Assembly: GCA_902767055.1 (NCBI GenBank)
Contig: CACXFX010000155.1
Coordinates: forward strand, 1-10,360
DNA: 10,360 bases
Source: an uncultured Pseudomonadota bacterium
Lineage (GTDB): Bacteria; Pseudomonadota; Alphaproteobacteria; RF32; CAG-239
Direction: 5' to 3'
Shown here one piece after another: positions 3,813 through 10,358 of the stretch; position 1 is the stretch's first letter, and every line of letters begins with the position of its first letter. A model generated the notes under the pieces. That model was not told the DNA's origin. It made no database searches and saw only the letters and a list, made by a program, of their open reading frames with translations. The position numbers and the translations under genes are program-made.

Positions 3813-3841
3813 TTGACAAAGGCCATAAATTATGCCATTAT
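3813..3841 (+). promoter_or_regulatory. Probable sigma70-type promoter of the structured RNA
   Basis: A perfect TTGACA (-35) at 3813-3818 is followed after 17 nt by CATTAT (3836-3841, 4 of 6 to TATAAT); an overlapping TATCAT (3839-3844) is the alternative -10. Initiation would fall near 3847-3851, at or just inside the first hairpin of the RNA. It points away from gatC, so 3721-3846 is a divergent control region. Confidence 0.6.
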
Positions 3842-3846
3842 CATAG

Positions 3847-4009
3847 CGTAACCGAATGGTTGCGGTGTTAGACAACACATTTAATCGCATTAACTCCTTT
3901 CTTGAGGAGTTTTCGAAATAAGCGCTCTGGCGACGAATAAGAATAGCTGTGCGATTACAGTTTGTCTAGCTCCTCTTCCGTTTTGATTATTCAAGATGGA
4001 AATTTTTTT
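3847..4009 (+). ncRNA. Putative structured small RNA or attenuating leader, unknown family
   Basis: This gene-free stretch folds well by eye. (1) A 5' hairpin has CGTAACC (3847-3853) pairing with GGTTGCG (3858-3864) around a GAAT loop. (2) A long-range stem joins GTTAGACA (3867-3874) to TGTCTAGC (3963-3970). It continues after an internal loop as TAATCGCA (3882-3889) with TGCGATTA (3950-3957). (3) Inside it, an 8-bp hairpin has AACTCCTT (3892-3899) with GAGGAGTT (3904-3911). (4) A small arm has TTCG/CGAA closing a CGC-TCTG-GCG hairpin (3912-3937). (5) An intrinsic terminator ends it at 3976-4009. With the TTGACA promoter this makes a self-contained unit of about 163 nt. I could not match it to 6S, SRP, tmRNA, RNase P or a riboswitch class I know. 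It ends 26 nt before the next start codon and no second promoter is visible between. It may therefore act as a terminating leader for that gene instead of a free RNA. Confidence 0.55.
3976..4009 (+). terminator. Intrinsic terminator upstream of the secreted-protein gene
   Basis: TTCCGTTTTGA (3976-3986) pairs over all 11 positions, with two G-U wobbles, with TCAAGATGGAA (3991-4001) around a TTAT loop. A7-T run follows (4003-4009). Polarity is plus strand only, since there is no T-tract on the other side. It lies only 15 nt before the ribosome binding site of the next gene, so transcription must read through it or start very close to the gene. Confidence 0.8.
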
Positions 4010-4035
4010 ATTTATTTGAGAAAAAGGATTTTAAA

Positions 4036-4860
4036 ATGAGAAAATATTGGGTTTATATTACTGCTTTATTTATGATTTTAGGACTAAACAATAAAGCTTA
4101 TGCTGAGTGTATATATAGCATTTGTCACACATGGAATCCGGGGGTGGAAAACAATTGCGGACAAGGTTGTACTTACACTTTTGAAAACGGTACGGTTTAT
4201 GTGACAGCTGACGGAAACAATGCCACAATTTCCGAAGGCGCTTTATCTCCGTTATACTATGATGCGATGCCTTCAAATATCTCTAGTGTTATCATAGACG
4301 GAAATTTTGAAACAATAAACACACATGCGTTTGCTGAGTTAGGTACAAATATCTCAGGAAAAAATGGTAAACTCACCCTTGAAAAAGTCGGTTGGAATGC
4401 ATTTGGAAATGGTAGCAATCATTTAACGGGAGAAATTTTGGTATCAGATTCCGTTTCTGTAATGGGACAAGGATATTTGGTAAATGTTACGCTGGATGGA
4501 ACATTGATTATCCCTGAAAATACGAGCTTTTCTGATGGGCCTCTAACGGATATAAAACTTGGTCAAAACGGTAAAATATACTGCGGTGTCGATGATTGTG
4601 AACAACGTTTAATGGATGATTGTAACAATAAGAGTATTTATCAACAAGAATGTATAGATTCACTTAAAAAAATCGTTGAAGCAAATAAGTTGCAAGCCTT
4701 TCCATCTGGATGTCAAGAGATGAAAAGCACAGGTTGTACAAAATGCAAAAACACAAGATTCAGGTTAACGGACGGAAAATGTAACCGCATTATTTATACC
4801 ATTGATGAGGCAAATCAAGCCGCCGGCGACAAAAACCGTGTTTCAATCAGATACCGCTAA
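4036..4860 (+). CDS. Secreted Cys-rich protein with BspA-like leucine-rich repeats and a conserved C-terminal tail
   Basis: 274 aa. The N-terminus is a Sec signal peptide: MRK, a hydrophobic core, then cleavage most likely after AYA at residue 23. The Cys at +2 does not fit a lipobox, so this is not a lipoprotein. Residues about 82-184 hold degenerate BspA-type (LRR_5) repeats, clearest in SSVIIDGNFETINTHAFAEL and in LTLEKVGWNAFGNG. The mature protein has 12 cysteines (25, 30, 41, 45, 183, 188, 196, 206, 226, 234, 237, 249), grouped before and after the repeats. This suggests disulfides in the periplasm or outside the cell. Residues 252-274 form a tail, IYTIDEAN...NRVSIRYR, that recurs in the gene at the right edge. 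The ribosome binding site AAGGA (4024-4028) sits 7 nt before the ATG. The gene stands alone between a terminating RNA and a bidirectional terminator. BspA-like repeats often serve surface binding or adhesion; its real role is unknown. Confidence 0.85.
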   Translation: MRKYWVYITALFMILGLNNKAYAECIYSICHTWNPGVENNCGQGCTYTFENGTVYVTADGNNATISEGALSPLYYDAMPSNISSVIIDGNFETINTHAFAELGTNISGKNGKLTLEKVGWNAFGNGSNHLTGEILVSDSVSVMGQGYLVNVTLDGTLIIPENTSFSDGPLTDIKLGQNGKIYCGVDDCEQRLMDDCNNKSIYQQECIDSLKKIVEANKLQAFPSGCQEMKSTGCTKCKNTRFRLTDGKCNRIIYTIDEANQAAGDKNRVSIRYR

Positions 4861-10043: not shown

Positions 10044-10358
10044 TTACCTGTACTTTATCGAGACTCGATTTTTATTACCGGTAACGGCATTTGCTTCGTC
10101 AATCGTATAAATGCGCTTTGGCATATGTTTTCCTTTGAGCAAATCATCAATCGAAGCATACGATTTATTTTTATACTCAATCGGATGATTAGCATTTTCA
10201 GCCTCGACCATTGCCGCACAGGCTTCATTACTTGAACAATATCCTTTGTTTTGTAATACTTTTGCCTTGCAAATATCCATATCAACACACGCATTTTGAG
10301 TGTTTGCCATATCAATCGGCGAAGCATACATTTGACCATCTAAAACATAAACCCCGCT
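10044..10358 (-). CDS. Hypothetical Cys-containing protein with the shared C-terminal tail, 5' end missing
   Basis: The frame is open from the right edge to a TAA at 10044-10046 (104 codons visible). The ATG at 10329-10331 is internal, since the frame continues upstream with SGVYVLDGQ, so the true start lies outside. The visible part has four cysteines, within the span ACVDMDICKAKVLQNKGYC and in NEAC. It has three related units with Tyr, then Ser or Thr, then Asp: VYVLDGQMYASPIDMAN (10302-10352), IEYKNKSYASIDDLLKGK (10128-10181) and RIYTIDEANAVTG (10077-10115). It ends in the same 23-residue tail as the secreted protein at 4036-4860 (17 of 23 identical). By analogy it may also be exported, but its N-terminus cannot be seen. 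I do not recognise a named family; function unknown. Confidence 0.75.
   Translation of the reverse strand, partial: SGVYVLDGQMYASPIDMANTQNACVDMDICKAKVLQNKGYCSSNEACAAMVEAENANHPIEYKNKSYASIDDLLKGKHMPKRIYTIDEANAVTGNKNRVSIKYR

Follow-up and report, generated by a model that had tools for sequence, protein, structure and literature searches.

The two copies of a 23-residue C-terminal tail found in the window belong to a large set, with 85 distinct tail-terminated frames in the genome of origin, that of a rumen alphaproteobacterium. Judging from sequence comparison, the tail is probably a lineage-specific C-terminal recognition tag that would serve export or surface attachment. Its consensus is R-I-Y-T-I-[DE]-E-A-N-x-V-A-G-x-K-N-R-V-S-I-K-Y-R. 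The window, by which we mean the whole stretch of DNA analysed, is one whole contig of 10,360 nt and contains the following features:

3813..3841, plus strand: putative sigma-70-like promoter TTGACA-N17-CATTAT, 5' of the leader (recognised by eye)
3846..3973, plus strand: class A leader RNA of the tail gene (covariance model R1, E 2.9e-23; this leader is itself one of the 19 sequences behind the model)
3976..4011, plus strand: intrinsic-terminator-like hairpin and U run, just 5' of the ribosome-binding site (-12.8 kcal/mol, z -5.0)
4036..4860, plus strand: secreted BspA/LRR-type protein, 274 aa, Cys-rich, with tail (weak LRR_5 match and Foldseek)
4036..4104, plus strand: predicted Sec signal peptide, cleavage after AYA (hydropathy and AxA heuristic, not SignalP)
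4789..4857, plus strand: C-terminal tail IIYTIDEANQAAGDKNRVSIRYR, stop codon directly after YR
10044..10358, minus strand: C-terminal part of an LRR paralogue, its 5' side truncated by the contig end
10047..10115, minus strand: C-terminal tail RIYTIDEANAVTGNKNRVSIKYR, stop codon directly after YR

An earlier, sequence-only reading of this DNA had located both tails and the stop after YR exactly, and its counts (17 of 23 residues identical, 10 of these 17 with different codons) were reproduced on recounting. It had taken the two proteins for unrelated, which was wrong: both are LRR paralogues, connected through the LRR_5 paralogue L034. The right-edge frame is 92% identical to the C-terminal third of L034 across all 104 residues, and L034 matches the window LRR protein with E 8e-10 (single comparison). 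The window protein itself matches LRR_5 with E 0.0033, under the curated cut-off, and the best Foldseek matches of its first AlphaFold model in the PDB are LRR proteins, at a weak E of 8e-3.

Abundance, conservation and range of the tail

That the tail extends beyond these two proteins is clear from the genome of the window (G000, 1.2 Mb), where a single-sequence search returned 76 matches at E ≤ 1e-3, far above chance, and a profile based on several genomes from the genus returned 102 at E ≤ 1. The matches are scattered over many contigs, often at contig ends. The surroundings of the E ≤ 1e-3 matches were fetched together with 18 further LRR loci; the 85 distinct frames that end in the tail, some of them cut on the 5' side, comprise 74 with the 23-residue form and 11 with a 24-residue form. 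Among the 18 added loci, all 12 with an available 3' end terminate in the tail, the other six being cut by contig ends; a few further G000 LRR matches were left outside these loci. By our own estimate, which takes roughly one gene per kb, up to about a tenth of the genes of this small genome would share the tag, which matches no known family.

The tail lies at the extreme C-terminus, as had been proposed from the two window copies: every occurrence checked by a pattern search ends at the stop codon (85/85 in G000, 76/76 in RUG13121, which we take from its name to be a rumen genome, and 46/46 at other loci), and none is internal. The 46 other loci include some refetched G000 and RUG13121 loci, and the pattern omits the 27-residue form described below.

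An alignment of 74 tails has six invariant positions (I -22, E -17, G -11, N -8, I -4 and Y -2), and its information content declines steeply beyond residue -24 in the upstream direction. Nucleotide identity averages 0.70 across the tail itself, 0.36 across the 69 bases 5' of it and 0.28 across the 57 bases after the stop. When pairs of G000 tails share a residue, its codon differs with a frequency of 0.549, where the codon usage of these genes would give 0.569 (72 tails). Since synonymous codons are mixed to the degree that this usage implies, selection in G000 acts on the protein, as the sequence-only reading had preferred over a recent DNA copy, and recent DNA copying is ruled out by this test as the source of the G000 tails. 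The corresponding values are 0.498 and 0.565 in RUG13121 (75 tails) and 0.376 and 0.52 in G090, a genome of another genus (23 tails), where some homogenisation is apparent and recent copying is partly possible. Given this partial DNA homogenisation in G090, recombination may help to keep tail sets uniform.

Across 125 genomes sampled from the order, matches at E ≤ 1e-3 occur in six, all of the window's genus (eight sampled), and none occur in the other genera. Two genomes of the window's genus, G028 and G101, have no tail at E ≤ 2. At E ≤ 1, there are 121 matches in G040 and 17 in G093, alongside the 102 of G000; at E ≤ 2, there are 12 in G094 and 29 in G109, the 27-residue form included; and G118 has at least 69. 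The 27-residue form, such as RIYTVEEARQAVEAAGTDTVNFRIRYK, was observed in G109 (L254–L268) next to the 23-residue form. Titles of named tail-bearing relatives point to roe deer rumen, yak rumen and yak reticulum. Tail identity is 0.783 within G000 and 0.808 within RUG13121, and 0.706 between these two genomes. Class-wide, a search of 385 genomes at E ≤ 0.01 returned, outside the window's genome, only two partial matches at chance level (E 0.005 and 0.0065, 14 and 13 residues long).

A broader profile gave one match each, at E 0.016–0.095, in nine genomes of other genera, G090 included. The G090 set, to which the tail profile thus gave one weak match, was recognised by following its leader RNA. 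At least 67 G090 proteins end in a homologous acidic tail, RYTLPEADAATSNDNENMIEWIFE, which in 23 sequences follows the pattern RYT[IL][PQ]EAD-x-x-TS-x-D-x-EN[MT]IEWIFE; acidic tails ending in ENMIEWIFE were seen at L312–L316, L344 and L352–L371. Y-T-[IL]-x-E-A-[ND] and a last segment with an aromatic next-to-last residue are kept between G090 and the window, while the end of the tail changes from basic to acidic. LRR_5 is matched by four of six G090 tail proteins scanned, and two G090 tail proteins are homologous to the window protein in single comparisons (31% identity, E 3e-41; 32%, E 3e-30), the first of them aligning through most of the tail. A shared recognition partner would be expected to make a whole tail set change together from one genome to another; in G090, partial gene conversion may have contributed to the concerted change. 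Scanning related genomes, as the earlier reading had advised, yielded many more tails, but the range found does not take in the alphaproteobacteria broadly: it covers one genus of gut alphaproteobacteria and, with a divergent version, a single genome from a second genus.

Carrier proteins and structural predictions

A Sec-type signal was predicted by a hydropathy heuristic, not SignalP, in 104 of 110 complete carrier frames (at least 150 residues, 5' end intact; from G000, RUG13121 and one RGIG9974 locus). Carriers with no predicted Sec signal are L122, L148, L153, L158, L163 and L170. In Pfam at E ≤ 0.01, 46 of 48 carriers from the window's own genome match LRR_5, the repeats that mark BspA-type LRR surface proteins and that the window protein shows weakly, as do 45 of 57 carriers in a second set, A5. 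This second set leaves out L148, L153, L158, L163 and L170, which are short or signal-less, and includes L160 from another genome; four of its members match RHS_repeat and four MORN_2, in a tally that is silent on joint LRR_5 matches. Ten G093 carriers were scanned: three match LRR_5, three RHS_repeat (one under the cut-off) and four neither, and among these four L269 has an LptD match under the cut-off (E 0.0021) at residues 21–62, outside the tail. Several carriers have Ser/Asn- or Gly-rich low-complexity linkers ahead of the tail, and small carriers of 128–140 aa also exist. Because non-LRR proteins carry it as well, the tail is ruled out as an LRR cap.

Two loci stand apart. An LRR-like secreted frame, L068 1–468, lies immediately 5' of a tail gene but itself lacks the tail at its end. 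At L064 (642–1553), the tail is fused to a TPR/SNAP-like membrane protein that has no leader, by gene fusion or as an assembly artefact; the TPR/SNAP-like assignment is ours, and the Pfam tally names no member.

The idea of a fixed tag on exported proteins, raised in the sequence-only reading, is supported by the extreme C-terminal position, the predicted Sec signals, the presence of several architectures and the selection at protein level. No transporter or protease partner was identified, secretin being the sole secretion part looked at (15 genomes).

Two AlphaFold models were compared. In the first (48 sequences, mean pLDDT 82), the tail scores 70–78, with a helix at 256–263 and the last eleven residues unstructured; in the second (30 closer sequences, mean pLDDT 86), blocks of the body score 80–97 and the tail 68/59/47. 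Neither model pairs the end of the tail as a strand of the LRR body, and the models suggest that the tail is not packed on the protein body.

A check of Pfam and NCBIfam for an existing domain, also part of the earlier proposal, found no model above cut-off overlapping the tail in the scans that give match positions; one weak match overlaps it at 13.8 bits, compared with a cut-off of 190. Against PDB profiles, the best match to the tail is at chance level (E 0.55). T9SS sorting-domain families are absent from the 48 and 57 carriers searched in Pfam (E ≤ 0.01) and from the 57 searched in NCBIfam (E ≤ 0.1). Barrel families are likewise absent from the Pfam tallies of the 48 and 57 carriers; one A5 member has a weak outer_TDE1717 match (E 0.037). 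No description of the tag was found in the open-access papers searched, and a search on structured RNAs gave one unrelated paper; both count as weak evidence.

Leader RNAs ahead of the tail genes

Fifty of the 60 complete tail genes of G000 follow a structured leader recognised by pattern, 19 of class A and 31 of class B. By eye, six of the remaining ten have a whole or partial leader, and four have none (L048, L064, L068 and L198). Inspection also reveals a promoter-like TTGACA box (TTGAC...TA..AT) ahead of many leaders and, after most of them, a terminator-like hairpin with a U run just 5' of the ribosome-binding site.

In the alignment of 19 class A leaders, 93.6% of cells are paired, compared with 78.4 in shuffles, and the covariation score is 0.494 versus 0.198, collapsing once the partners are offset by sliding them one to three columns. 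A long-range helix of at least 7 bp forms in 19/19 sequences and in 10/338 swapped partners, and a closing helix of at least 6 bp in 17/19 and 25/342, respectively; in the two misses, L015 and L060, the pattern caught an earlier CAG, and both look complementary in the alignment. Slid controls somewhat favour the structures, because these were derived from the same alignments; the swap tests are less exposed. The window's class A leader folds 4.2 sd below shuffles. For class B, 30 of the 31 leaders were aligned (L076 was left out owing to a pattern mismatch), giving 98.1% paired cells versus 89.0 and a covariation score of 0.382 versus 0.197. The minimum energy of the single class B leader folded is no better than that of shuffles (z -0.90), so the case for class B rests on covariation.

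Rfam returned nothing for the window at E ≤ 1. In 15 sources carrying both classes, no leader match exceeded the cut-offs, and the search returned two tRNAs and two weak matches (E 0.16 and 0.19, far under gathering scores), the second being a plant-virus signal located upstream of the L020 leader core. Each of the two leaders may represent a new class of regulatory RNA.

Covariance models at E ≤ 0.01 detected class A in 88 of the 125 genomes of the order and class B in 107. Among the 57 matches listed for G000 (at least 27 of class A and at least 30 of class B, hand-matched to gene tables), 40 precede a tail gene, one of which is cut inside the tail; eight lie before a contig-cut LRR gene, six near contig ends and three before other genes (L347, L348 and L349). 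In RUG13121, 504 kb picked around tail genes contain 66 distinct leaders, and by pattern 57 of them stand before a tail gene. The other nine comprise one before a longer tail variant, two before carrier-type genes running off the locus, one before a broken-looking carrier-type gene, two with no long frame and three before other genes. In two samplings of other genomes, class A appeared by eye ahead of short HTH-like frames and class B ahead of lipoprotein-like, type IVb pilin-like and other genes. Since the leaders are far wider in distribution than the tail, they are not a tail-specific device, and we infer that the tail genes have taken over pre-existing leaders.

Individual loci were also inspected. 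In tail-less genomes, class A stands right before frames of 96–113 residues resembling small HTH proteins at L328, L333, L336 and L337, and other fetched class A loci have shorter downstream frames; in G046 (L317, L318 and L345), three type IVb pilins lie behind class B leaders. The leader alignments A7 and A8 cover L009–L201, and the downstream genes differ between genera.

Interpretation and comparison with known systems

We hypothesize that Sec exports the protein with the tail trailing last, and that an envelope partner (an exporter, or a docking or anchoring protein) would then recognise the free C-terminus, with the Y-T-I/helix/N-x-V-x-I-x-Y-[RK] pattern as the probable point of contact. 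The last eight residues of the tail could add a beta strand to the partner, and the proteins would end up outside the outer membrane or fixed to the cell surface. The single partner, the strand addition and the surface location are the parts of this mechanism that we infer. Under this proposal, tails would be alike within a genome and change together between lineages because one partner serves about a hundred clients. Several observations weigh against a tag: no partner was found, and secretin, the secretion part checked, is present in tail-less genomes too; the two AlphaFold models differ in tail confidence; most carriers belong to a single paralogous LRR family, whose shared descent explains part of the tail sharing; G090 tails are partly homogenised at the DNA level; and L068 1–468 lacks the tail, while the carrier L064 is a fusion.

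Only one candidate exporter emerged, the type IVb pilus. Each of 15 genomes tested, tail-bearing or not, has one secretin, which is therefore uninformative as a tell-tale partner. In RUG13121, the secretin locus contains TcpQ, PilO, T2SSE, T2SSF and a weak PilS/bundlin match, and adjoins a tail gene and TrbC-like frames; G000 and G090 have a similar pilus gene order by eye (loci L387, L388 and L389), and the secretin lies in the pilus locus in all three genomes read. The tail might accordingly be imagined as a docking signal of this pilus, the C-terminus hooking a minor pilin and the client exiting by the PilN-type secretin. By analogy with TcpF this is a serious rival, because there a pilus of this type carries a soluble protein out of the cell by means of a terminal peptide: the V. 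cholerae pilus exports soluble TcpF via an N-terminal peptide bound to the minor pilin TcpB (PMC9565799). Relatives of type IVb pilins (PilS/bundlin) also abound in the database (7981 of 8000 candidates scored), some of them behind class B leaders. When tail profiles were compared with pilin C-termini (75 of 120 listed pilins, P0012–P0131, which fitted the pattern), the G090 profile beat 60/60 column shuffles, but for the window-type profiles A2, A3 and A6, respectively 2, 10 and 43 of 60 shuffles reached the score, so that these tails are not convincingly above shuffles, and all hhalign probabilities are below 1%. The TcpF–TcpB signal resembles the tail in being a terminal peptide of a soluble secreted protein, with a pilus locus in the genome, but it is N-terminal in TcpF and C-terminal here, and binding of a minor pilin by the tail is only hypothetical. 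Tail-less genomes also carry the secretin. We regard pilus docking as unlikely.

It is rather unlikely, too, that the tail is an assembly module, its final beta strand being donated to a neighbouring tail protein or to a common scaffold in a donor-strand-like manner, which would build a surface layer or fibre instead of directing export. The alternating V-x-I-x-Y ending, fixed to the residue, would suit such a role, as would the lack of an intramolecular strand for the tail end in the predicted models, but no acceptor groove was identified and the bodies to be joined are very different (LRR, RHS and the 128–140 aa proteins). Paralogy alone, in which a recently expanded LRR family keeps an ancestral C-terminal domain and gene conversion holds the copies alike, would fit the predominance of LRR_5 paralogues among carriers and the partial homogenisation in G090. 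It is made improbable by the randomised synonymous codons of G000, by nucleotide identity that is high in the tail and drops on both sides, and by the presence of the tail on RHS/YD and small proteins. Least of all do we expect a degradation or quality-control signal for a PDZ-type periplasmic protease: such proteases do read free C-termini, but it would be strange for about a hundred surface-type proteins all to bear a degron.

We return to the recognition tag. As a tentative extension, it may be one part of an undescribed sorting system, in which each expanded lineage has its own tag version on about a hundred secreted proteins, co-evolving with one receptor, and the same genes are switched by two new terminator-coupled leader RNAs. 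If the tail is a sorting tag, it would reveal a route by which uncultured alphaproteobacteria of the rumen export or attach proteins, and make their surface proteome predictable from sequence alone, and its difference between genomes would amount to a natural experiment in receptor–tag co-evolution.

Several known C-terminal signals invite comparison. The outer-membrane beta-signal is a strand-like C-terminal end with alternating hydrophobic residues and an aromatic. The tail also ends strand-like, with alternating hydrophobics and an aromatic, but the bodies are LRR or repeat proteins rather than barrels, and the last residue, after the aromatic, is R or K (E in G090). L349, a barrel-looking protein of the same genome, ends in F. 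The carriers do not look like barrels or autotransporters: the Pfam tallies contain no barrel family, with weak matches only, and the models are of LRR type.

PEP-CTERM consists of a C-terminal transmembrane span followed by basic residues, and CTERM anchors need a hydrophobic span. The tail shares with them the short, fixed C-terminal tag present in many copies per genome. It differs, as the sequence-only reading had observed and as tail sequences and composition bear out, in having neither a hydrophobic span nor a basic end cluster of that kind, which excludes it from PEP-CTERM.

The T9SS C-terminal domain has some 70–100 residues, and BspA-like LRR proteins are among T9SS cargoes. Both systems combine a Sec signal with a conserved C-terminal signal on many unrelated cargoes, but the tail has 23 residues, matches no T9SS family and occurs in another phylum than the Bacteroidota of T9SS. 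PMC11285876 describes the T9SS domain as an Ig-like beta-sandwich of seven strands. The tail is not such a domain: its conservation stops at -24, the models contain no seven-stranded domain and there is no family match. Thus, as far as our searches show, the tail belongs in kind with C-terminal sorting tags and is new in sequence, size and range.
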